Assembly (NCBI GenBank): GCA_002700095.1 | Contig: PACL01000039.1 | Location: 82,212 to 146,211, forward strand | DNA: 64,000 nt | Origin: Fulvimarina sp. | GTDB lineage: Bacteria; Pseudomonadota; Alphaproteobacteria; Rhizobiales; Rhizobiaceae | Reading direction: 5' to 3' | In this document: piece after piece, positions 18,958 to 32,653 of the stretch | Position numbering within the stretch: the first letter of the stretch is position 1 | How the letters are laid out: the number at the start of each line of letters is the position of its first letter | The notes under the pieces: model-generated | The model's input: only the letters and a program-made list of their open reading frames with translations | What the model was told of the DNA's origin: nothing | Databases searched by the model: none | Position numbers and translations under genes: made by a program

Positions 18958-21753
18958 CTATGCCGTGCGCTGCGACGCGTCGCCTGTCACGATATTGGGG
19001 ACGACCTCGGGGGCAACCCCGGCGACGATCCCGGCGATCTCGCTGCGGCAGGAGCCGCAATTGGTGCCGGCCTTCAGCAGCTCTCCCACCGCCTCGACGC
19101 TGATTGCCCTGCCGGAGGCGATCGCCCCGGCGATCTCGTTGATCCCCACCGAAAAGCACGAGCAGACGATGGCGCCGGGATCCGGCCGGTCGGCCCCGCC
19201 GCGCCCGGCGAGCAGGCGGGTGCGCGCCGGCGATGGATGGGCTCCGGCAAGCTGCGCGGCGGCCCAGCCGCGCGAGACGGCGACCGGCGAACGGGAGAAA
19301 TAGAGCGCGGCCACCAGCCGCTCCCCGGCAAAGGCGGCGAAGCGATGGGCGCCGCCTGCATCGTCGCGATAGGCCAGAATGGCGCCCGCGGAAACGCCGG
19401 AGAGCCGCTCGGCGAGGCGGGCGGGATCGTCCAGTGTGACAAGACCGGCCATCTCCAGCCGCCATCCCCGTTCCGCCCGGGCCAGCGCGAAATAGTCGAG
19501 CCCTGCCGTCGGCGGGCGCTCGGCCGTCACCGCGAAGCCGTACCAGGCGGCTTCGAACCGGCTGACGGTGACCGGCGTCGCCTTCAGTCCCGGTTGGCCG
19601 GAGACCGGATCCACCGCGGAGGAGACCAGCGCGTCGATCCGGCCGTCGGAGGACGTGTCGCCGGTCCAGTGCATCGGCACGAAGACCGAGCCGAGGCGCT
19701 GCCGGTCGCTGACCAGCAGCCGCACGACCACCGCACCGCGCGGCGAGACGATCCGCACGAGATCGGCGTCGCCGAGACCGAGACGCGCGGCATCGGCCGG
19801 ATGCAGCTCGGCATAGGGCTCGGCGATATGGGCCGAGAGCCGCGCCGAAAGCCCGGTGCGGGTCATGGTGTGCCAGTGGTCCCGCCCCCGGCCGGTGTTG
19901 AGGGTGAGGTGGCCTGCGCTGCGCGCTGCGGCGTCGAGCGGCGTCGTGGTGAGGCTCTCGGCAGCGTCGTCTTCTGGCACGCGGCGCACGGCCGGCATCG
20001 GTACGAAGCGGGCGCGGCCGTCGGCGTGAAAGAAGCCGCCATCGGCGAAGAAGCGGGTATCGTCGGCCGACGGAAAGGCGGGGTGCGGGACGGAAACCGT
20101 GCCGCCTTCGACCTTTACGGCCGGCCGGGGCCATTGCACCGGGCCGAGCGCGTCGTAGCCGGCGGCGCCCAGCCCGGCGAGGCCGCCGATGTCGAAATCC
20201 CGGCGTCCATCATTCTCGAAGCCCGACAGCCGGGCGTGCTCGTCGAAGATCGCGGCCGGGCCCGGGTAGTCGAAGGCGGAGCCGGCGCCCATGCGCCTTG
20301 CGACCTCGCAGATCATCCACCAGTCCGGCCGCGCCTCGCCGGGCAAAGGCAGGAAGGCGCGCTGGCGCGAGATGCGGCGTTCGGAATTGGTGACGGTGCC
20401 GTCCTTCTCGCCCCAGGCGGCGGCCGGCAGGGCGACTTGTGCGTACTTCATCGTGTCGGTGCGGGCGACGACGTCGGAGACGACCACGAAGGGACAGGCA
20501 GCGAGCGCCCGCGCCACCCTGTCGGCATCGGGCATGGAGACCACCGGATTGGTGCCGATGATCCAGATCGCCTTGATCGTTCCCGAAGCCACCGCGTCGA
20601 ACATCTCGACCGCCTTCAGGCCGGGCTTCTCGGCGAGCTTCGGTGCGTTCCAGAAACGGCGGACGATGTCGCGCTCGGTCTCGTTTTCGATCGCCATGTG
20701 GGCGGCCAGCATGTTGGCCATGCCGCCGACCTCGCGCCCGCCCATGGCATTGGGCTGGCCGGTGATCGAGAACGGGCCCATGCCGGGGCGGCCGATCCGG
20801 CCGGTGGCCAGATGCACGTTGATGATGGCGTTGACCTTGTCGGTGCCTGAGACCGACTGGTTGACGCCCTGGCTGTAGACGGTGACGGTCTTCCCCGCGG
20901 CGGCGAAAAGCTCGTAGAATCGGCGAATGTCGGCGGGGGCGAGACCGGTGGCGGCGGCCACAGTGGGAATGTCGAGCTGGGCGGCGGTATCGAGGGCGGC
21001 GTCGAGGCCCGACGTGTGGGCCGCGACATAGGCCCGGTCGATCGCGCCGACATCGGCGAGATGGTGAAGTAAGCCGGCAAATAAACTGGTATCGCCGTCG
21101 CTCGCGATGGGCAGATGCAGGTCGGCGATCTCGGCCGTCGCCGTGCGGCGCGGATCGATCAGCACGACCTTCATCGCCGGCCTTGCGGCCTTGGCCGCGG
21201 CGAGGCGCTGATGGATGACGGGATGGCACCAGGCGAGGTTCGAGCCGACGAGGACGACGAGGTCGGCAAGCTCCAGGTCCTCATAGGTGCCGGGCACCGT
21301 GTCCGAGCCGAAGGCGCGACGATGGCCGGCGACGGAGGATGCCATGCAGAGGCGGGAGTTCGTGTCGATATTGGCCGAGCCGACAAAGCCCTTCATCAGC
21401 TTGTTGGCGACGTAGTAGTCCTCGGTCAGGATCTGGCCGGAGACGTAGAAGGCGACGGAGTCCGGCCCGTGTTCGGCGATGGTGCGGGAAAAGCGGTCCG
21501 CCACGAGGTCGAGGGCGGTGTCCCAGTCGGTCCGCACGCCGTGATGCAGGGGATGAAGCAGCCGGCTTTCCAGCCCCAGCGTCTCGCCGAGCGCCGAACC
21601 CTTGGAGCACAGGCGGCCGAAATTCGCCGGATGCTCCGGATCCCCGGCAATGGCGACGCCGCCGTCGCCGCGCGGCGTCGCCAGGATGCCGCAACCGACG
21701 CCGCAATAGGCGCAGGTGGTGCGGACGGATTTGCGCGTCGGGGCGGCGTCCAT
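18958..21753 (-). CDS. nasA: Assimilatory nitrate reductase catalytic subunit with C-terminal BFD-like [2Fe-2S] domain
   Basis: TTCAYCGVGCGILA [4Fe-4S] motif, molybdopterin-binding motifs (GFVGSANIDTNSRLCMASSVAGH), C-terminal CSCFSVGINEIAGAI...NCGSC; start ATG at 21753. Confidence 0.93.
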   Translation of the reverse strand: MDAAPTRKSVRTTCAYCGVGCGILATPRGDGGVAIAGDPEHPANFGRLCSKGSALGETLGLESRLLHPLHHGVRTDWDTALDLVADRFSRTIAEHGPDSVAFYVSGQILTEDYYVANKLMKGFVGSANIDTNSRLCMASSVAGHRRAFGSDTVPGTYEDLELADLVVLVGSNLAWCHPVIHQRLAAAKAARPAMKVVLIDPRRTATAEIADLHLPIASDGDTSLFAGLLHHLADVGAIDRAYVAAHTSGLDAALDTAAQLDIPTVAAATGLAPADIRRFYELFAAAGKTVTVYSQGVNQSVSGTDKVNAIINVHLATGRIGRPGMGPFSITGQPNAMGGREVGGMANMLAAHMAIENETERDIVRRFWNAPKLAEKPGLKAVEMFDAVASGTIKAIWIIGTNPVVSMPDADRVARALAACPFVVVSDVVARTDTMKYAQVALPAAAWGEKDGTVTNSERRISRQRAFLPLPGEARPDWWMICEVARRMGAGSAFDYPGPAAIFDEHARLSGFENDGRRDFDIGGLAGLGAAGYDALGPVQWPRPAVKVEGGTVSVPHPAFPSADDTRFFADGGFFHADGRARFVPMPAVRRVPEDDAAESLTTTPLDAAARSAGHLTLNTGRGRDHWHTMTRTGLSARLSAHIAEPYAELHPADAARLGLGDADLVRIVSPRGAVVVRLLVSDRQRLGSVFVPMHWTGDTSSDGRIDALVSSAVDPVSGQPGLKATPVTVSRFEAAWYGFAVTAERPPTAGLDYFALARAERGWRLEMAGLVTLDDPARLAERLSGVSAGAILAYRDDAGGAHRFAAFAGERLVAALYFSRSPVAVSRGWAAAQLAGAHPSPARTRLLAGRGGADRPDPGAIVCSCFSVGINEIAGAIASGRAISVEAVGELLKAGTNCGSCRSEIAGIVAGVAPEVVPNIVTGDASQRTA

Positions 21754-21870
21754 GGATGTGTCCTTCGTCGGTTGTGGCGGCTGGCTTGCGGGGCGACGGC
21801 GGATCGATGGATCTTTGGACGGGCGCGCTCGGCATGTCCCGCTGCTCCGTCTGATCCGTGGGGCGCGGGG

Positions 21871-21912
21871 ACTCCCCTCTGTCCTGCCGGACATCTCCCC
21901 ACAAGGGGGGAG
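21871..21912. repeat. REP-like intergenic palindromic element, copy 1
   Basis: ACTCCCCTCTGTCCTGCCGGACATCTCCCCACAAGGGGGGAG; inverted relative to the copy at 22035-22078. Confidence 0.6.
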
Positions 21913-22034
21913 ACTGGACCTCGTTTGACCTCGGCCCACACCGGACCTTTCCTCCGTCTGAGCCCGACGATCGGTCGCCACCCCGGCCGCCATGTTCAGA
22001 CATCTCTGGACAGGGATCGCCAAACTCCCAGCCG

Positions 22035-22078
22035 ATCTCCCCCGCGTGGGGGAGATGCCCGGCAGGGCAGAGGGGGGC
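22035..22078. repeat. REP-like intergenic palindromic element, copy 2 (inverted)
   Basis: ATCTCCCCCGCGTGGGGGAGATGCCCGGCAGGGCAGAGGGGGGC. Confidence 0.6.
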
Positions 22079-22213
22079 GCTCCTGCGCTGTCGCCGGCAG
22101 AGCTGTCCTCCGACGAGCCGTCGTCTGGCGAGGAGCCCAAATCCTCGGAAAACCCCGTCGCCCGTCCAGCGACGCCGCAATCGACGGCCGGCTGCCTCAC
22201 CCGATCTCGCCCG

Positions 22214-22570
22214 TCATTCGGCCGCTTCCCTCAATCCCGCCACCTCCTCGGCCAGCGAAAGCTCGATCACCTCGGTTATCGGATCGACCCGGACGGAAAA
22301 CACCCGCACCCGGCCCTCGTCGGGCCCTCGCATCTCGCCGCTGGTCAGCGAGATCACGGCATTGTGGAGCGGACAGGTGACCGAGGCATCATGGACGATC
22401 CCCTGGGAGAGCGGCCCGCCCTTGTGGGGGCAGCGGTCCTCGGTGGCGAAGATGCGGTCCTCGGCGGTGCGGAAGACGGCGATCCGTCCGATGGGCGTCA
22501 CGACGCAGCGGGCGCCGCGGCGGGGAATGTCGGTGACGAGGCCGATCCTGTGCCAGGAGCTGGTCATCAT
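22214..22570 (-). CDS. nirD: Nitrite reductase small subunit (Rieske-type)
   Basis: DRCPHKGGPLSQGIVHDASVTCPLHNAVISL Rieske-like motif; overlaps the nirB stop. Confidence 0.93.
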   Translation of the reverse strand: MMTSSWHRIGLVTDIPRRGARCVVTPIGRIAVFRTAEDRIFATEDRCPHKGGPLSQGIVHDASVTCPLHNAVISLTSGEMRGPDEGRVRVFSVRVDPITEVIELSLAEEVAGLREAAE

Positions 22571-25020
22571 TCGGCGGCCTGCTGGAGGCCGATCGCGGCC
22601 ATGGGCTCGAATTCGTGGCGGGCGACGCCGCCCGTGGCGCGGTCCGCCCAGGGGTCGCGCTGGGAAAACTGCTGGCTGAAGACGAAGCGGTCGTAATAGT
22701 GTCGGCGCTTGCCCGGATCATCGACGATCGCCGCCTGGATGGACTCCATGCCGACCCGTTTGAGCCATTTGTACATGCGCTCGAGATAGTGGCCCTGCTC
22801 GCGGTAGAGCTGGACGAGGGCGACGATGGTCTCCAGCGCCTCGTCCTCGGTCCTGACCTGGGTGAGGACTTCCGTCGGCTTGATGTCGAGGCCGGCGGCG
22901 CCGGCGAAATGGATCTCGAAGCCGGCATCGGTGCAGATGACGCCGACATCCTTGCAGGTCGCCTCGGCGCAGTTGCGCGGGCAGCCGGAGACCGCCATCT
23001 TGACCTTGGCGGGGGTCCAGGAGCCCCACATGAAGCGCTCGATCCGGATGCCGAGGCCGGTGGAATCCTGCGTCCCGAAGCGGCACCAGTCGGTGCCGAC
23101 GCAGGTCTTCACCGTGCGCAGCGCCTTGCCATAGGCGGCGCCCGAGACCATGCCGGCGGCGTTGAGATCGGCCCAGACGGCGGGCAGGTCCTCCTTCTTC
23201 ACGCCGAGCATGTCGATGCGCTGGCCGCCGGTGCATTTGACGGCGGGGATCTGGAACTTGTCGACCACGTCGGCGATGGCCCTGAGCTCATTGGCCGAGG
23301 TCATGCCGCCCCACATGCGCGGGACGACGGAATAGGTGCCGTCCTTCTGGATGTTGGCGTGGACGCGCTCGTTGATGAAGCGCGACTGCTTGTCGTCGAC
23401 ATATTCGCCCGGCCAGTCGGCGAGGAGATAATAGTTCAGCGCCGGCCGGCATTTGGCGCAGCCGCAGGAGGTCTTCCATTCGAGCTCCTGCATGACCTCG
23501 GGGATCGATTTCAGGGCTTTCGCGACGATCAGCCGGCGCACGTCGGCATGGCCGAGATCGGTGCAGGGGCACATCGGCTTGACGGCCTGGGGATTGAAGG
23601 CGTCGCCCAGCGTCAGTGCCATCAGCTGCTCGACGAGGCCGGTGCAGGTGCCGCAGGACGACGAGGCCTTGGTGTGGGCGCGGACCGCGTCGAGGGAGGC
23701 CAGGCCCCTGGCCGTGATCGCCCCGGTGATCTTTCCTTTGCACACGCCGTTGCAGCCGCAGATTTCCGCATCATCCGGCAAGGCTGCAACGGCCGCCATA
23801 GGGTCCAGGGGGGCGCCTCCCTGGTAGGACTGGCCGAAGATCAGCGTCTCGCGCATCTGCGACACGCTGGTCTTCTTCTTCATCAGGTCGAAGAACCAGG
23901 CGCCGTCCGCCGTCTCGCCGTAAAGGACCGCGCCGATGATCGCATCGTCCTTGATGACGAGGCGCTTGTAGACGCCGACCGAGGCGTCGCGCAGCACGAT
24001 CTCCTCGCGGTCGTCGCCTTCCGCGAAGTCGCCGGCGGAAAACAGGTCGATGCCGGTGACCTTCAGCTTGGTCGAGGTGACCGAGCCGAGATAGGCGTTT
24101 TCGCAGGGGCCGCGGAGCTGCGCGGCCACCACCTCGGCCATTTCGTAGAGCGGCGCGACGAGGCCGTAGCACATGCCGCGATGCTCCACGCACTCTCCGA
24201 GGGCGAAGATGTCGGGGTCCGACGTGCGCATGTCGTCGCCGACCCTGATGCCGCGGCCGACGTCGAGGCCGGCCTGTTTCGCGAGATCGGTGGAGGGCCG
24301 GATGCCGACGGCCATGACGACGATCTGAGCGTCGATCACCGTGCCGTCGTCGAGCTTCACGTTCTCGACCTTGTCCTCGCCGAGGATGGCGTGGGTGTTG
24401 GCCCTGGTGACGACATCTATGCCGCGCGCCTTCAGGGAGCGTTCGAGGAGGAAGCCGGCGGCCGGATCGAGCTGGCGCTCCATCAGCGTCGGCATGAGAT
24501 GGAGGACCGTGACGTCCATGCCGCGCAGCTTCAGGCCGGCGGCGGCTTCGAGACCGAGCAGCCCGCCGCCGATGACCACGGCGCGGCCGCCGTTCTTCGC
24601 CGCCTCCAGCATCTTCTCGACGTCGTCGAGGTCGCGATAGGCCAGGACGCCGGGCAGGGTGGAGCCCGGGATCGGCACGATGAAGGGGTTCGAACCGGTG
24701 GCGACGATCAGCTTGTCGTAAGGCGCCGTCGTGCCGTCGGCTGCCGTGACGGTCTTGCCCGCCCGGTCGATCGCCTCGACCCGCTTGCCCTTGTGGAGGG
24801 TGACGCCGTGGGCCGCGTACCAGGCGTCGTCATGGGTGACGATCTCCGCATAGGTCTTTTCGCCGGACAGCACCGGCGAGAGCATCAGCCGGTTGTAGTT
24901 GACGCGCGGCTCGGCGTTGAAGATCGTCACCTCGTACTGGCCGGGGGCCCGTTCGAAGAGGCGTTCGAGGGCACGGCCGGGGGCCATCCCGTTGCCGATG
25001 ACGACGAGTTTCTCAGGCAT
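22567..25020 (-). CDS. nirB: NAD(P)H nitrite reductase large subunit
   Basis: FAD domain MPEKLVVIGNGMAPGRALE, BFD-like CGCNGVCKG, sirohaem/4Fe-4S region KTCVGTDWCRFGTQDS and SGCPRNCAEATCKDVGVI. Confidence 0.96.
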   Translation of the reverse strand: MPEKLVVIGNGMAPGRALERLFERAPGQYEVTIFNAEPRVNYNRLMLSPVLSGEKTYAEIVTHDDAWYAAHGVTLHKGKRVEAIDRAGKTVTAADGTTAPYDKLIVATGSNPFIVPIPGSTLPGVLAYRDLDDVEKMLEAAKNGGRAVVIGGGLLGLEAAAGLKLRGMDVTVLHLMPTLMERQLDPAAGFLLERSLKARGIDVVTRANTHAILGEDKVENVKLDDGTVIDAQIVVMAVGIRPSTDLAKQAGLDVGRGIRVGDDMRTSDPDIFALGECVEHRGMCYGLVAPLYEMAEVVAAQLRGPCENAYLGSVTSTKLKVTGIDLFSAGDFAEGDDREEIVLRDASVGVYKRLVIKDDAIIGAVLYGETADGAWFFDLMKKKTSVSQMRETLIFGQSYQGGAPLDPMAAVAALPDDAEICGCNGVCKGKITGAITARGLASLDAVRAHTKASSSCGTCTGLVEQLMALTLGDAFNPQAVKPMCPCTDLGHADVRRLIVAKALKSIPEVMQELEWKTSCGCAKCRPALNYYLLADWPGEYVDDKQSRFINERVHANIQKDGTYSVVPRMWGGMTSANELRAIADVVDKFQIPAVKCTGGQRIDMLGVKKEDLPAVWADLNAAGMVSGAAYGKALRTVKTCVGTDWCRFGTQDSTGLGIRIERFMWGSWTPAKVKMAVSGCPRNCAEATCKDVGVICTDAGFEIHFAGAAGLDIKPTEVLTQVRTEDEALETIVALVQLYREQGHYLERMYKWLKRVGMESIQAAIVDDPGKRRHYYDRFVFSQQFSQRDPWADRATGGVARHEFEPMAAIGLQQAAE

Positions 25021-25099
25021 GGAAGGCTCCATGGTTCAGGCGATTGTCGTCGGCCGCGTTGCCACTTAAGATGGCGCCAACCGAGCCGGGGCGGGGGCG

Positions 25100-25396
25100 A
25101 TGGCGGGCGAAGTCTTCGACTGGGACGAGGCGAAGCGGCGGGCGAACCTCGCCAAGCACGGCGTCGATTTTTCGCTGGCGCGCGAATTTTACTGGGACAT
25201 CGCCGTCATCGAGAGGGACGGCCGAAACGACTATGGCGAGGACCGGCTTTCCGTCACGGCGCCCTTGCTGGGCCGTCTCCACGTCATGATCTATGTGGTT
25301 CGGGACGGCATGATCCGGATCATCAGCCTTCGCCGGGCGAACAAGCGAGAAAGGCGACGTTATGAAGAAGCGATGGCAGACCGAGCCGATAAGTGA
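25100..25396 (+). CDS. brnT: BrnT family toxin
   Basis: FDWDEAKRRANLAKHGVDFSLAREFYWD...RLHVMIYVVRDGMIRIISLRRANKRERRRYEE. Confidence 0.9.
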   Translation: MAGEVFDWDEAKRRANLAKHGVDFSLAREFYWDIAVIERDGRNDYGEDRLSVTAPLLGRLHVMIYVVRDGMIRIISLRRANKRERRRYEEAMADRADK

Positions 25397-25658
25397 CGAG
25401 GAAGACGCGGCGATCACCGCGGCGGCCCTGTCGGACCCCGACAACCCGCCGCTGACCGACGAGCAGATGGACCGCATGCGCCCGGCGCGGGACGTGATGC
25501 CGCGCGAGCTGTTCGAGAGGCTGACCGAAACCCGGGCCGTCTTCGTGCCGGAAAAGACCGTCGCGACCTTCAAGAAGGCGTTCGGCGCCGACTGGGAAGA
25601 GGCGATGCGCGATGTCCTGCGCGAGGCGGCCGAGCGGAAGGACGAGGCGGCGGAGTAG
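25362..25658 (+). CDS. brnA: BrnA family antitoxin
   Basis: SDEEDAAITAAALSDPDNPPLTDEQMDRMRPARDVMPRELFE; overlaps the 3' end of brnT in another frame, as usual for brnTA. Confidence 0.85.
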   Translation: MKKRWQTEPISDEEDAAITAAALSDPDNPPLTDEQMDRMRPARDVMPRELFERLTETRAVFVPEKTVATFKKAFGADWEEAMRDVLREAAERKDEAAE

Positions 25659-25686: not shown

Positions 25687-27456
25687 TCAGGCCGCCTCCC
25701 TGGCCTTTGCGGATGGTGCTGGCTTGCCATCCTCGGCGGCAGATGTTCCCGCGGCGGGCCTCGCGCCCCCCTCGTATTCTTCGAGGAAATCGAGCAGTTC
25801 CTGGCGGGTGCGCCAGTAGTCGGGATGCTCCAAGAGCGCCTTGCGGCTGCGCGGGCGGGGCAGATCGACGCTCATGATCTTGCCGATCCTCGCCTTCGGA
25901 CCGTTGGTCATCATCACCACCCGGTCGGCGAGGAGGATCGCCTCGTCGACGTCGTGGGTGACGCAGATCGCGGTTACCTGGGTGCGCTTCCAGACGTCCA
26001 TCAGGACGTCCTGCAGCTCCCAGCGCGTCAGCGAATCCAGCATGCCGAAGGGCTCGTCGAGGAGGAGCAGCTTCGGCGACAAGGCGAAGGCGCGGGCGAT
26101 GCCGACCCGCTGCTTCATGCCGTTGGAAAGGTCGGCCGCCTTGCGGTGCATGGCATCGGCGAGCCCCACCCGGTGGAGATAATGCTCGACCACGTCGCGG
26201 CGCTCGGCGGGGGCGGCGTTGGGATAGACCCGGTCGACGCCGAGCGCGACGTTTTCGCGGGCGGTCAGCCAGGGCATCAGCGACGGCGCCTGGAACACCA
26301 CGGCGCGGTCCGGCCCGGCGCCCGAAACCTCGCGGCCGTCGAGGATGATGCCGCCGGAGGAGATGTCGGTCAGCCCCGCGGCCATCGACAGCACCGTCGA
26401 CTTGCCGCAGCCCGAATGGCCGATCAGCGTGACGAACTCGCCCTGGCGCATCGTCAGGTCGAAGCCGTCGACGACGGTGAGCGGCCCCTTCGGTGTCGGA
26501 TAGACCTTGCGCACCTCGAAGAACTCGGCGAAGCCGCGCTCGATCGGCGAGCGGGCGGCGTCGAGATAGGCCTTGGGCAGATCCGGCGAGGGGGTGCGCT
26601 TCTTCGAACCGAGGGTGATCGGCGTGACGTTGGGCAGGGCGACGGCGTCGCCGGCCTCGGCGCTGGCATGCCGGCCCTTTTCGACGAGATAGCCGGTGAT
26701 CTCGCGGCGCAGGCGCTTGAAGGTCTCGTTGCCGTTCATCGATCCGCGCTCTCGCGGATGCGGCAGATCGACGGCGAATGAGGGTCCGAGCGAGGCGCGC
26801 GGGCCGGGATCGAGCGGGATGATCCGGTCGGCGAGGAGGATCGCCTCGTCTACGTCGTTGGTGATGAGGACGATGGTCTTCTTCTCGATCTGAGAGATCG
26901 CGGCGAACTCGTCCTGGAGCTTGCCCCGGGTGAGCGCGTCAAGGGCCGAGAGCGGCTCGTCGAGGAGGAGGATCTCGGGGCTCATGGCGAGCGCCCGCGC
27001 CACCGAGACGCGCTGGCGCATGCCGCCGGAAAGCTCGGCCGGCTTGCGGCTCTCGGCATGGGAGAGGCCGACCATGGCGATGTATCTGTCGATCCGGGCG
27101 TTGCGCTCGGCCTTCGAAGCCTTGGCGAAGACGGTGTCCACGGCGAGCGCGACATTGCCGCGAACCGACAGCCAGGGCATCAGCGAATAGGACTGGAAGA
27201 CGACGCCGCGCTCGGGGCCGGGGCCGGTGACCGGCTTGCCCTTCATCAGGACCTTTCCGGCATCCGGCGCGATCAGCCCGGCCAGCAGCGAGATCAGCGT
27301 GGTCTTGCCGGAACCGGAGAAGCCGACGATGGCGATGAACTCGCCTTCCGCGACCGTCAGATCGACGTCCTTCAGGATCTCGGCGCGGTGCTTGCCCTCG
27401 CCATAGGCCTTCGAGACCTTGTTCAGCTCGATGATCGGGGTCGGCGCCATATCCAT
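25687..27456 (-). CDS. nrtCD: Nitrate ABC transporter ATP-binding protein with two fused ABC domains (NrtC/NrtD-like)
   Basis: Two Walker A motifs (GFSGSGKTTL and GHSGCGKSTV) and two signature motifs (LSGGMRQRVSVARA and LSNGMKQRVGIARA) in one 589-aa ORF; start ATG 27456 overlaps the permease stop. Confidence 0.92.
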   Translation of the reverse strand: MDMAPTPIIELNKVSKAYGEGKHRAEILKDVDLTVAEGEFIAIVGFSGSGKTTLISLLAGLIAPDAGKVLMKGKPVTGPGPERGVVFQSYSLMPWLSVRGNVALAVDTVFAKASKAERNARIDRYIAMVGLSHAESRKPAELSGGMRQRVSVARALAMSPEILLLDEPLSALDALTRGKLQDEFAAISQIEKKTIVLITNDVDEAILLADRIIPLDPGPRASLGPSFAVDLPHPRERGSMNGNETFKRLRREITGYLVEKGRHASAEAGDAVALPNVTPITLGSKKRTPSPDLPKAYLDAARSPIERGFAEFFEVRKVYPTPKGPLTVVDGFDLTMRQGEFVTLIGHSGCGKSTVLSMAAGLTDISSGGIILDGREVSGAGPDRAVVFQAPSLMPWLTARENVALGVDRVYPNAAPAERRDVVEHYLHRVGLADAMHRKAADLSNGMKQRVGIARAFALSPKLLLLDEPFGMLDSLTRWELQDVLMDVWKRTQVTAICVTHDVDEAILLADRVVMMTNGPKARIGKIMSVDLPRPRSRKALLEHPDYWRTRQELLDFLEEYEGGARPAAGTSAAEDGKPAPSAKAREAA

Positions 27457-28550
27457 CACCGCGTGCCGGAGAAGGTGAAGGCGGCCTGCAGCGCGGCCAT
27501 GATCCGGTCGAGGACGAAGCCGACGATGCCGATGGTGATGACCGCGACGATGATCCTGGCGAGCGAATCCGACGAGCCGTTCTGGAACTCGTCCCAGACG
27601 AACTTGCCGAGGCCGGGATTCTGGGCGAGCATCTCGGCGGCGATCAGCACCATCCAGCCCACACCGAGCGACAGCCGCAGGCCGGTGAAGATCAGCGGCA
27701 TCGCCGAGGGCAGCACCAGCTTGGTGATGGTCTTCGTCGTCGACAGCTGCAGCACCTTGCCGACATTGACGAGGTCCTTGTCGATCGAGGCGACGCCGAG
27801 GGCGGTGTTGATCAGCGTCGGCCAGAGCGAGCAGAGCATCACGGTGATGGCCGAGACGACCATTGACTTCGGCATGGCGTCGGAGGCGTTCACGTAGAGC
27901 GCCGAGACGATCATCGTGACGATCGGCAGCCAGGCCAGCGGCGAGACCGGCTTGAAGATCTGGATCAGCGGGTTGAGCGCGCCGCTGACGGTCGGCGACA
28001 GGCCGCAGGCGATGCCGACCGGCACGGCGATGATCGTGGCGAGGACGAAGCCGAGGAAGACGGTCTTCAGCGAGGTGAGGATCTGCTCGGGATAGGTCGG
28101 CGCGCCGGTATAGTCGCGGATTTTCACCCGGTCGGCATGGCCGGCCTCGACGAGCTTCTGGTTGCGGGCCTCCTGGCGCTCGTAGAACTCCGCCTTGTCG
28201 GCGGAGGTGCGCTGGTAGTCGGCATAGAGCGCCTCGGCCTGGCCCCAGACGGCGGCGGGGCCCGGCACCGTGCCGAGCGAGGTCTGCACCTGCGGGGCAA
28301 GCGCCGCCCAGGCGGCGAGGAAGGCAAGAATGCCGATCAGCGGCACAACCAGCCCCATCCAGAGCCCCTTCAGATTGGCGCGGGGATCGTCGCCGGCGGC
28401 GATCTTCATGATCGGCACGGTCCAGCCGAGGCCGATGGCGGTCAGCGGGCCGGACGCCCGGGTGATGCGCATCATGCGCGTCTCGCGCTTCAGCACCCGG
28501 CGCGCTTCGGCCGAAGGCACGTCGCCCATGAAGTCGGAGGCGGTGGTCAT
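27456..28550 (-). CDS. nrtB: Nitrate ABC transporter permease
   Basis: Multi-TM BPD-transport inner-membrane protein, LSLGVGWMVLIAAEMLAQNPGLGKFVWDEFQNG; adjacent to nrtA and nrtCD. Confidence 0.92.
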   Translation of the reverse strand: MTTASDFMGDVPSAEARRVLKRETRMMRITRASGPLTAIGLGWTVPIMKIAAGDDPRANLKGLWMGLVVPLIGILAFLAAWAALAPQVQTSLGTVPGPAAVWGQAEALYADYQRTSADKAEFYERQEARNQKLVEAGHADRVKIRDYTGAPTYPEQILTSLKTVFLGFVLATIIAVPVGIACGLSPTVSGALNPLIQIFKPVSPLAWLPIVTMIVSALYVNASDAMPKSMVVSAITVMLCSLWPTLINTALGVASIDKDLVNVGKVLQLSTTKTITKLVLPSAMPLIFTGLRLSLGVGWMVLIAAEMLAQNPGLGKFVWDEFQNGSSDSLARIIVAVITIGIVGFVLDRIMAALQAAFTFSGTR

Positions 28551-28634: not shown

Positions 28635-30017
28635 TCAGTTCGAGAGGCTCGCGACGTCCTCGTCGCCCTTCAGGCCGATCTCGAATTTCTGCAGATATTC
28701 GTTGGGCCGCGAGCCGTCATATTCGACGCCATCAATGAACTCGGCCGTCGAGGGCTTGTAGCCGTCGGTCTCGGGAATGTCGGCGGCGTCGAGGAGGCCG
28801 TCGTCGATGAGCGAGGCGGCGGCCTGTCTGTAGATGTCCGGGCGGTAGACGCTTTTGGCCGTCTCGGCATACCAGTCGTCGGACTTCTCTTCCGCGATCT
28901 GGCCCCAGCGGCGCATCTGGGTGAGATACCAGACGGCGTCGGAGTAATAGGGATAGGTGGCGAACTTCTTGAAGAAGACGTTGAAGTCCGGCGCCGGGCG
29001 CTTGTCGCCCTTCTCGTATTCGAAGGTGCCGGTCATCGAATTGGCGATGACTTCGGCGTCGGCGCCGACATATTCGGGCCGCGCCAGGATCTCGACGGCC
29101 TCCTTGCGGTTTTCCGGGCTTTCGTCGAGCCATTTGCCGGCGCGGATCAGCGCCTTGGTGAGGGCGATCGTCGTCTGCGGGTTCTCCTCGACGAACTTCG
29201 CGGTCAGGCCGAAGACCTTTTCCGGATTGTCCTTCCAGATCTCGTAGTCGGTGATGACCGGCACGCCGATGCCCTTGAAGACGGCCGCCTGGTTCCACGG
29301 CTCGCCGACGCAGTAGCCCTGGATGGTGCCGGCCTCGAGCGTCGCCGGCATCTGCGGCGGCGGCGTGACGGAGAGGAGAACGTCGGCCTTCACCTGGCCG
29401 GACGTGTCCGACGGCGTGTAGTAGCCGGGGTTCAGCCCGCCGGCGGCGAGCCAGTAGCGCAGCTCGTAATTGTGGGTCGAGACCGGGAAGACCATGCCCA
29501 TGTTGAAGGGCTTGCCCGACGCCTTGTACTGTTCGACCACCGGCTTCAGGGCGCTCGCCGAAATCGGATGCTGCGGCCTGCCCTCGGCATCCTTGGCGAT
29601 GTGCGTCTTCATCTCGGCCCAGACGGCGTTGGAGACGGTGATGCCGTTGCCGTTGAGGTCCATCGAGAAGGGCGTGACGATATGCGCCTTCGTGCCGTAG
29701 CCGATGGTGGCGGCCAGCGGCTGGCCGGCCAGCATGTGGGCGCCGTCGAGTTCGCCGGTGATCACCCGGTCGAGCAGCACCTTCCAGTTCGCCTGGGGCT
29801 CGATGGTGACGTAGAGACCCTCGTCCTCGAAGAAGTGCTTCTCCTTGGCGATGGCGAGCGGCGCCATGTCGGTCAGCTTGATGAAGCCGAACTTCAGCTC
29901 GTCCTTTTCGGGGATCAGCATCTCGGCGGAAGCCGGCAGAACCGTCAGGGCGGCTCCGGCGATGGCTGCGCGAAGAAGAAGACGGCGGGTAATCGCAGTC
30001 AGGATCGGCATGAACAA
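28635..30017 (-). CDS. nrtA: Nitrate ABC transporter substrate-binding protein
   Basis: Twin-Arg-like leader ([23 protein letters not shown]), [72 protein letters not shown]. Confidence 0.94.
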
Positions 30018-30070
30018 AGCTCTCCCGTGGCCTGGCGTGGAAACGCACCGGCTTGGCGATGTCTGGAAAA

Positions 30071-30142
30071 AGAAAAAGGCTGCCCGACCCTTCCCGTCAC
30101 GACCCGAAGTCTGTGACGATGCAAAGAAGTGTCGGCAGCCTT
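30071..30142 (-). terminator. Leader intrinsic terminator upstream of nrtA
   Basis: Minus strand AAGGCTGCCGAC...GTCGGGCAGCCTT followed by TTTCTTTTT; 12-bp stem with one bulged G. Confidence 0.8.
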
Positions 30143-30168
30143 GCCAGTGGCGCCCGCCCTTGGACGCC
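30133..30168 (-). promoter_or_regulatory. Putative NasT (ANTAR) antitermination target: tandem hexaloop hairpins
   Basis: Minus strand P1 GGCGTCC-AAGGGC-GGGCGCC (7 bp) at 30149-30168 and P2 TGGC-AAGGCT-GCCG (4 bp) at 30133-30146; both loops have A1 and G4, and P2 overlaps the terminator 5' arm. Confidence 0.75.
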
Positions 30169-30417
30169 GAATGCTGAAGACGACTATGGTCGCCTCACGG
30201 AACCCTGTTTAGAACAAGCCGAAGCGTGGTGCAATGCGAAATGGGGGATTTACGCGAGATTTTTGGGCGGTAGGAGATTATGAATAGAATTTAGGCAGGA
30301 TGAATTCGCCTTAGGCATCTCGGGTGCAAGCCAAGTGTGCAAGCGCACGCCCTTTCGCATACCACTGAAAACGAGCACTCGCGGAGGGATCAACGTAGCT
30401 CATGACAATTGAGCTCT

Positions 30418-30612
30418 TCAGAAATGTTTCGAAAGGCCGGCGTCCTTGAGAGATTGGTTCGCGGTGTGCCGCGACTTGATATCGGAATCGACGGTGAAGT
30501 AACGGCCCGTGATCGGACTGTACCAGATCTCATGATCACCTCTTCCCTGCCGGTGAAACCAACAGCCGGCGGCCAGAAGAAGTGTCTTCAATTCTCGGGT
30601 GTAGCCTGGCAT
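30418..30612 (-). CDS. hicA: HicA-like toxin
   Basis: MPGYTRELKTLLLAAGCWFHRQGRGDHEIWYSPITGRYFTVDSDIKSRHTANQSLKDAGL, HicA dsRBD-like fold with GDHEIW (usual motif GSHxxW). Confidence 0.85.
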   Translation of the reverse strand: MPGYTRELKTLLLAAGCWFHRQGRGDHEIWYSPITGRYFTVDSDIKSRHTANQSLKDAGLSKHF

Positions 30613-30615
30613 CGT

Positions 30616-30858
30616 TCAATGCCGGGGATTTGGGATCCGGGACAACTGCTCCGCCATGAAGTGCACCGGAATTTCAGACGTCTCGTAGCTGGGGCCGTTG
30701 AGTTCGATCAGATCCGCAAGTGCTCCGAAAACCTTGTCCCTCAGGCGGTCCAGGCTGGCTGCCTCGATCGACAGGCCGGCGACGTCGTCGCTGCTGGCAA
30801 CCCAGACGCTCGCCTCCTCGTCCCAAACCGCTCGCACGATGATCGACGCATGACGCAT
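30616..30858 (-). CDS. DUF1902 family protein (putative HicB-like antitoxin)
   Basis: ASIIVRAVWDEEASVWVASSDDVAGLSIEAASLDRLRDKVFGALADLIELNG; immediately upstream of hicA; SD-like GGAGAA before the ATG. Confidence 0.8.
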   Translation of the reverse strand: MRHASIIVRAVWDEEASVWVASSDDVAGLSIEAASLDRLRDKVFGALADLIELNGPSYETSEIPVHFMAEQLSRIPNPRH

Positions 30859-32063
30859 GGGTTTTCTCCGAGAGTTTTAATGTCTCGCCGAAATTGGCAT
30901 GTGACGAGCGGATTTGCGAGCCCGGCCCCTCCCCCCTCCGCGTCGAACAACCCCGCCGGCCTGTCGCCAGCGTCGCCGGTGACGGCGCCGGCGCCCGGAT
31001 CGCCGACCACGCCCGTCGCGGCATCGAAAAGCTGCGGCGAAAACGTCTCGCCGGCGATCGTCAGGCCGTGGTCGGAGAAGGGGGCGTCGCCCCAGCCGGC
31101 CATCTGGCGATAGAGCCAGCGGCCGTGGCCGTGGTCCGGCCGGTTGGCGCCCGAGCCGGCAAAGACCATGAAGTCGGGAATCGCGCGGCTGCGGCCCGGC
31201 GCCGTCTCCAGGCGGCCCGTCAGGCCCGGCATCAGCGCCGCTTGCTCGACGTCGAGCCGGTCTGGCCCGGCGAGAAGCGTGGCGAGTTCGGGGACGTTGT
31301 CCGCGTCGGCGCACCATGCGGCGGCGTCGCCGAGGGCGAGGAGGAGGTTCGCCAGCGTCTCGGGGTTCTCCTCGGCGAAGGCTTTTCGCACGCCCAGCAC
31401 CTTTTCCGGCCCGCGCCGCCAGATCTCCGCCCGGCTGGTGACGATGCGCCCGGCGCCGCGACGGACCGCGATCGTGCCCCAGGGCTCGCCGGCGCAAAAA
31501 CCGTCGATGCCGCCGCCGGCCAGCGCGTCGGGCATCAGCGGCGGCGGCACCACGGTGATCTCGACGTCCGTCTCCGGCGCAAGGCCGCAGGCCGCGAGCC
31601 AGTAGCGAAGGTCGTAGTTGTGGCTCGAATGGGGATGCACGACGGCAAGCCGCAGCGGCGTCCCGCCCGCTTCGCCGCGCTGGCGAACCACCGCTGCCAA
31701 GGCCGCGCCGGCGGTCGCGGGAGACGCGTCGTAGCCGGACGGCCCCAGTCGGTCCATCGCCGCGGCGACGGCGTTGGAGACGGTGACGCCGTTGCCGCCG
31801 AGCGCCAGCACCATCGGCGCCAGCATCGGCACGGGCAGGGGGCCGAGGCCGAGATTGGCGGCGATCGGCATCGGCGCCAGCATGTGGGCGCAGTCGAACT
31901 GGCCGACGCCGATGCGGTCGCGCACCGTCGCCCAGGAGGTTTCGCGCTGCAGGGAGAGAATGATGCCGCGTTCCTCGGCAAAGCCCTTGGCCGCGGCGGC
32001 GACGATGACGGCGCTGTCGAGGAGCGGGACGTAGCCTGCGCGGATGAAACTCGGCCCGGCCAT
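30741..32063 (-). CDS. nasS: Nitrate-sensing NasS-like protein (NrtA/CmpA family)
   Basis: FIRAGYVPLLDSAVIVAAAAKGFAEERGI, FDCAHMLAPMPIAANLGLG, GFCAGEPWG; no signal peptide; ATGA overlap with nasT. The C-terminal about 70 aa look non-native. Confidence 0.88.
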   Translation of the reverse strand: MAGPSFIRAGYVPLLDSAVIVAAAAKGFAEERGIILSLQRETSWATVRDRIGVGQFDCAHMLAPMPIAANLGLGPLPVPMLAPMVLALGGNGVTVSNAVAAAMDRLGPSGYDASPATAGAALAAVVRQRGEAGGTPLRLAVVHPHSSHNYDLRYWLAACGLAPETDVEITVVPPPLMPDALAGGGIDGFCAGEPWGTIAVRRGAGRIVTSRAEIWRRGPEKVLGVRKAFAEENPETLANLLLALGDAAAWCADADNVPELATLLAGPDRLDVEQAALMPGLTGRLETAPGRSRAIPDFMVFAGSGANRPDHGHGRWLYRQMAGWGDAPFSDHGLTIAGETFSPQLFDAATGVVGDPGAGAVTGDAGDRPAGLFDAEGGGAGLANPLVTCQFRRDIKTLGENPCVMRRSSCERFGTRRRASGLPAATTSPACRSRQPAWTA

Positions 32064-32653
32064 CAGTCGTCTCCGAGAAGGGTATAGGCGGAAACGAGGT
32101 TGGCGGCGACCTCGCCGATCCGGCGGTTCTCGTTCATCGCGGTGCGGCGCAGGAGCTTGTAGGCGGCGGCCTCGTCGAGCTTCTTCACCTTCATCAGGAT
32201 GCCCTTGGCGCGGTCGATGGTCTTGCGTTCGGCGAGTTCGGAGCGCGCCTCGGCGAGCTCGCGGGACAGCCGGCTGACGGCGTTGAAGCGGGAGATCGCC
32301 ATTTCGAGGATCGGCTTGATCCGCTCCTTCTTCAGCCCGTCGACCACATAGGCCGAGACGCCCGCCTCGATGGCCGCCTCGATCTCGGCGGTGTCGGAGC
32401 GATCGACGAACATCGCCATCGGCCGCTTCACCACCCGGGAGACCTGGAAGAAATGCTCGAGCTGGTCGCGGTTGGGATTCTCCAGATCGACGACGATGAC
32501 GTCGGGCTCCAGCTTCTCGATGCGCTTCACCAGCCCCTCGACGGTGGTCACGACCGAGACGTTGCCGTAGCCGGCCTCACGCAGCCCCTCTTCGATGATC
32601 GAGGCGCGCAGGCCGTTGTCATCGACGAGAAGGATGTTGAGCGGCTGCGACAT
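32063..32653 (-). CDS. nasT: ANTAR-domain transcription antiterminator NasT
   Basis: Receiver-like N-terminus (NILLVDDNGLRASIIEEGL) and ANTAR C-terminus (ELAERKTIDRAKGILMKVKKLDEAAAYKLLRRTAMNENRRIGEVAANLV). Confidence 0.94.
   Translation of the reverse strand: MSQPLNILLVDDNGLRASIIEEGLREAGYGNVSVVTTVEGLVKRIEKLEPDVIVVDLENPNRDQLEHFFQVSRVVKRPMAMFVDRSDTAEIEAAIEAGVSAYVVDGLKKERIKPILEMAISRFNAVSRLSRELAEARSELAERKTIDRAKGILMKVKKLDEAAAYKLLRRTAMNENRRIGEVAANLVSAYTLLGDD

Follow-up and report, generated by a model that had tools for sequence, protein, structure and literature searches.

The window, that is, the whole stretch of 64,000 nucleotides analyzed here, carries on its minus strand an array of nitrate assimilation genes preceded by their putative regulators. 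The nrtA gene (28635 to 30011), encoding the substrate-binding protein of a nitrate ABC transporter (NMT1_2, E 2.1e-98, and orthologues), is the first gene of the operon and is followed by the permease gene nrtB (27456 to 28550; BPD_transp_1 and TIGR01183 ntrB) and by nrtC/D, which encodes a double ATP-binding protein (25687 to 27450, start approximate; TIGR01184 ntrCD). Further along lie nirB, for the large subunit of assimilatory nitrite reductase (22567 to 25032; TIGR02374, E 2e-267), nirD, for its Rieske-type small subunit (22214 to 22570), and a gene for a nasA-type molybdopterin nitrate reductase with a BFD domain (18958 to 22200, start approximate). Between nrtC and nirB, a gene for a BrnT toxin and another small open reading frame are found on the plus strand (25100 to 25658), and the nitrate operon may therefore be interrupted at this point.

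Upstream of nrtA, nasT (32063 to 32653) encodes a REC-ANTAR antiterminator of 196 aa, recognized by its ANTAR domain (E 1.6e-18, with the longer reading frame) and by alignment to the EutV, Rv1626 and NasR structures. It is followed by nasS (30741 to 32063), which overlaps the stop of nasT and encodes a cytoplasmic nitrate/nitrite sensor, a paralogue of nrtA (NMT1_2, E 1.1e-69), whose C-terminal end is uncertain. The presence of both genes just upstream, as given in the preliminary description, is thus borne out by domains and synteny, and nasT-nasS is located directly upstream of nrtA in most loci examined. The nasS frame has no stop where the similarity of most relatives ends (30741 to 30900) and continues out of frame into a DUF1902/HicB-like gene, which together with a HicA toxin gene (30421 to 30858) separates nasS from the nrtA leader. 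Within the genus the presence of this pair varies: two loci (L003 and L007) have both genes, L004/L041 have hicB alone, and neither was found in the remaining Aurantimonas loci tested. The window comes from an Aurantimonas, its nrtA sharing 97% identity with the gene of Aurantimonas sp. 22II-16-19i.

The leader lies on the minus strand between the hicBA-like pair and nrtA. Its first hairpin, P1 (30149 to 30168), is formed by a 7-bp stem, GGCGUCC and GGGCGCC, closed by the hexaloop AAGGGC, and a linker of only two nucleotides, AC (30147 to 30148), separates it from P2 (30133 to 30146), the presumed antiterminator, in which a 4-bp stem, UGGC and GCCG, with three G-C pairs and one U-G pair, carries the hexaloop AAGGCU. 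Both loops have A at position 1 and G at position 4 (A1 and G4), and these are kept throughout Aurantimonas. A strong intrinsic terminator follows, with a 5' arm AAGGCUGCCGAC (30131 to 30142) that overlaps the loop and 3' strand of P2, a 3' arm GUCGGGCAGCCUU (30076 to 30088) and a U tract UUUUUCUUUUU (30067 to 30077). On the transcript, AAGGCTGCCGAC (30142 to 30131) pairs with GTCGGGCAGCCTT (30088 to 30076) over 12 bp with one G bulged, and TTTTTCTTTTT comes next, the tail reading U5CU5. The T tract ends at 30067, 56 nt before the ATG of nrtA at 30011. The loop and 3' strand of P2 supply the 10 nt, AAGGCUGCCG, with which the 5' arm of the terminator begins, so that both folds cannot coexist. 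Exact placement on the sequence agrees in every computable part with what had been described before, namely two consecutive minus-strand hairpins with these loops, a 7-bp first stem, a 4-bp second stem sharing sequence with the terminator, a terminator about 55 nt before nrtA and mutually exclusive folds.

The dual hexaloop rule for ANTAR targets (Ramesh et al., 2012, PMC3369931) describes this arrangement closely: the leader has two successive hairpins with 6-nt loops, stems of at least 3 bp (7 and 4 here), A1 and G4 in both loops, and a second hairpin mutually exclusive with an intrinsic terminator. Linkers of 5 to 12 nt are known from eut leaders, in which the function of EutV suffered when the linker was shortened to 3 nt (PMC3369931), whereas the linker measures 2 nt in the window and ranges from 1 to 9 nt across nrtA leaders, 1 to 4 nt being common. 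A trade-off between the length of P1 and that of the linker was considered and set aside, being partly built in as a longer stem consumes linker.

Conservation was assessed in leaders of nrtA sampled from 81 genomes (that of the window and 80 relatives) and in 80 named loci. Strict string matching of the hairpins recovered just 30 of 103 leaders, and a covariance model built from 27 leaders, all outside Aurantimonas, was used instead. Across these 27 leaders, 97.5% of cells are paired, compared with 31 to 57% when one strand is slid, a percentage that is biased upward since most of the leaders were selected for forming the hairpins. Four pairs of P1 are changed on both sides across these leaders of other genera, and one pair of P2, with three compensatory changes at the outer pair, the core GGC/GCC of P2 being kept in relatives. 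In the genus alignment, selected by homology alone, the block formed by P1, P2 and the terminator is the best-conserved part of the leader among Aurantimonas and its closest relatives, and P1 shows three compensatory pairs there (G-C to A-U, C-G to U-A and G-C to A-U). The terminator arms are nearly invariant within Aurantimonas, where their covariation is uninformative.

The model gives the site 43.7 bits (E 5.5e-9), against 13.7 bits for the second-best match in the window, and genome-wide (5.6 Mb) the nrtA leader is the only credible match (E 4.8e-7). The runner-up in the genome (27.9 bits), located within an H+-pyrophosphatase gene in antisense orientation, has no terminator and was rejected as a chance match. 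In 80 nrtA loci (869 kb), 32 of the 33 matches with E up to 0.1 are on the coding strand and at most about 260 nt before nrtA; they include six leaders from outside both Aurantimonas and the training set (L049, L075, L095, L084, L046 and L114), with 28.9 to 45.6 bits. The covariance search proposed earlier thus recovers the site with our own model, and Rfam, searched at gathering scores and at permissive thresholds, gave no relevant family for the leader. Covariation, conservation of A1 and G4 and the held-out match all support the suggested likeness to a two-hairpin ANTAR target. In two leaders, L114 and L117, the terminator is preceded by three A1/G4 hexaloop hairpins in tandem rather than two, about 150 to 260 nt before nrtA.

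The arrangement is also uncommon by chance. On both strands of the 64-kb window, a pair of A1/G4 hexaloop hairpins overlapped by a terminator occurs at this site only, and hairpin pairs of this form lacking the terminator overlap number a handful per strand. Among 20,000 dinucleotide shuffles of the leader, none had the full arrangement and 109 had the hairpin pair alone. The fold of the 161-nt leader is more stable than those of its shuffles (z = -2.7). The fold with the terminator reaches -61.1 kcal/mol, compared with -47.1 kcal/mol for that with P1 and P2. As the terminator is more stable by about 14 kcal/mol, the choice between them must be kinetic, with NasT acting during transcription. 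When folded without protein, P2 prefers an additional A1-U6 pair that closes the loop to a tetraloop, and the open hexaloop is therefore probably formed or selected by the protein.

A candidate promoter, TTGCAC-N17-TAAACA (30206 to 30234, minus strand), is suggested by its conservation in the genus, a similar sequence being present in most Aurantimonas genomes, 34 to 36 nt ahead of P1, and by a weak resemblance to the sigma-70 consensus; a sigma-70 consensus scan of the leader region did not detect it. The element TTGCACCA also seems to resemble half an NtrC site, and it could therefore be a regulator site instead of a -35 box. In most relatives scanned, a sigma-54 signature, TGGCAC-N-TGC, is found 21 to 45 nt before P1, and this -24/-12 signature was present before the element in none of the Aurantimonas genomes scanned. 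Close to where the transcript is expected to begin lies P0 (30178 to 30195, minus strand), a hairpin or palindrome of the form AGGCGAC-CATA-GTCGTCT that folds as 7 bp; its arms vary among Aurantimonas genomes and, by eye, usually stay complementary.

The link to NasT is drawn from gene neighborhood and from the protein itself. In many Alphaproteobacteria the element stands immediately ahead of an nrtA that adjoins nasT-nasS. The model matched 29 of 66 loci with nasT nearby versus 1 of 14 without (p 0.008), and the single match without a nearby nasT belongs to Mesorhizobium L-8-3, which encodes nasT elsewhere in its genome. No element was found before nrtA by model search in five genomes without detected NasT, namely a Cohaesibacter, three Maritalea and a Rhizobiaceae MAG. 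The association is imperfect, 37 of the 66 loci with nasT nearby being unmatched by the model, at least some of which show variant hairpins by eye. The ANTAR part of NasT aligns without gaps to EutV (6wsh) and retains the equivalents of EutV R142, K143, K149, E160, Y164, R168, M172, N173 and R177; the numbering of contact residues was mapped by hand from the alignment onto their published roles in EutV (PMC8934654). Nine of the 11 EutV residues contacting RNA are identical, the two others being a K to R and an R to N substitution. Among the retained roles, glutamate and tyrosine bind G4 and methionine plugs the loop (PMC8934654), and the asparagine at the R to N position is the residue used by NasR, N373 (PMC7496416). 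The REC domain of NasT apparently lacks the conserved lysine (VVDG versus LVKP in EutV and Rv1626), which, judged from the sequence, would fit control through binding of NasS and not through phosphorylation.

Related systems have been characterized in several bacteria, and RNAs of this type had already turned up in published searches, ahead of genes for nitrate transport and nitrite reductase (PMC3369931). In Paracoccus, nitrate releases NasT from NasS and NasT binds a nas leader (PMC3795266), in which a hairpin is required (PMC5424462). The nasA leader of Paracoccus denitrificans resembles the present one in having nasT-nasS directly upstream and in controlling nitrate assimilation genes (PMC3795266, PMC5424462), and by analogy the binding of NasT and the essential role of hairpin I may extend to the leader of the window; it controls nasABGHC, whereas nrtABC come first here, and the two leaders are likened at this level rather than base by base. 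In Bradyrhizobium diazoefficiens, NasT likewise antiterminates via leader hairpins, yet it also serves the nos/nap denitrification genes (PMC6759348), whereas the search of the genome of the window found one target. In the nasF leader of Klebsiella oxytoca, ANTAR antitermination likewise makes a nas operon responsive to nitrate, although through the one-component NIT-ANTAR regulator NasR in place of NasS-NasT (PMC7496416). With the dual-hexaloop motif and the EutV-RNA structure (PMC3369931, PMC8934654) the leader shares two A1/G4 hexaloop hairpins, the second overlapping the terminator; it differs from the eut motif in its 2-nt linker, its 7-bp P1 stem and a cognate protein presumably sequestered by NasS rather than controlled by phosphorylation.

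We thus propose, with high confidence, that the nrtA leader works as a classical ANTAR switch in which NasT governs transcription antitermination. When nitrate is absent, NasS would keep NasT inactive, the leader would form the 12-bp terminator and RNA polymerase would halt before nrtA. In the presence of nitrate or nitrite, NasS would free NasT, whose ANTAR domain is predicted to bind each A1/G4 hexaloop as it emerges, first that of P1 and then that of P2, a successive binding by the NasT dimer that is taken from work on Paracoccus and EutV (PMC3795266, PMC5424462, PMC8934654). Held by NasT, P2 would withhold GGCUGCCG from the terminator 5' arm, and with the terminator blocked transcription would proceed through nrtABC and probably into the genes that follow. 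The time available to NasT would correspond to some 45 nt, from the completion of P2 to the arrival of the terminator 3' arm. Binding of NasT, dependence on nitrate and readthrough at this leader are transposed from published work on Paracoccus, Bradyrhizobium, Klebsiella and Enterococcus.

Other readings of the leader were weighed against this switch. A constitutive intrinsic terminator closing the upstream nasT-nasS(-hicBA) transcript, with P1 and P2 as chance hairpins, would account for the strong terminator, which would indeed also stop readthrough from upstream; it is nevertheless very improbable, given that P1 lies outside the terminator and yet has its pairing preserved by compensatory changes, that the A1/G4 loops are conserved, that the leader is the only credible model match of the genome and that the element was not found in genomes without detected NasT. 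It seems just as improbable that antitermination depends on a leader-peptide attenuator or on another ANTAR protein instead of NasT. Such a protein, AmiR-like (G000:C89), is encoded in the genome, but its gene (L002, 1063 to 1719) is flanked by those of two urea/amide-type substrate-binding proteins, nasT-nasS adjoin nrtA in most loci examined, and an unsystematic look between P0 and the terminator revealed no apparent leader peptide.

As a NasT target, the leader might also affect not termination but translation or the stability of the mRNA, since some actinobacterial ANTAR RNAs are described as acting on translation (PMC8164766). We regard this as the least probable of the three, as P2 overlaps a complete intrinsic terminator with its U tract and the ribosome site is outside both folds, some 40 nt beyond the terminator.

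Nothing in the proposed NasT switch is new in kind, ANTAR targets with two hairpins having already been published, among them NasT targets ahead of nitrate genes, and it departs from the textbook target only in its 2-nt linker, common to relatives, and in its different promoter. Our literature search found no paper linking Aurantimonas to ANTAR control. The locus offers a clean and testable NasT target in this genus, together with a model, built from 27 sequences, of the form that the element takes before nrtA in Alphaproteobacteria, where Rfam gave no match. It also points to a possible promoter swap before a conserved RNA switch: nrtA of Aurantimonas may have moved from a sigma-54 to a sigma-70-like promoter, a tentative and rather doubtful scenario in which the NasT switch would have become the main gate of the nitrate genes, replacing a combined control by nitrogen limitation and nitrate.
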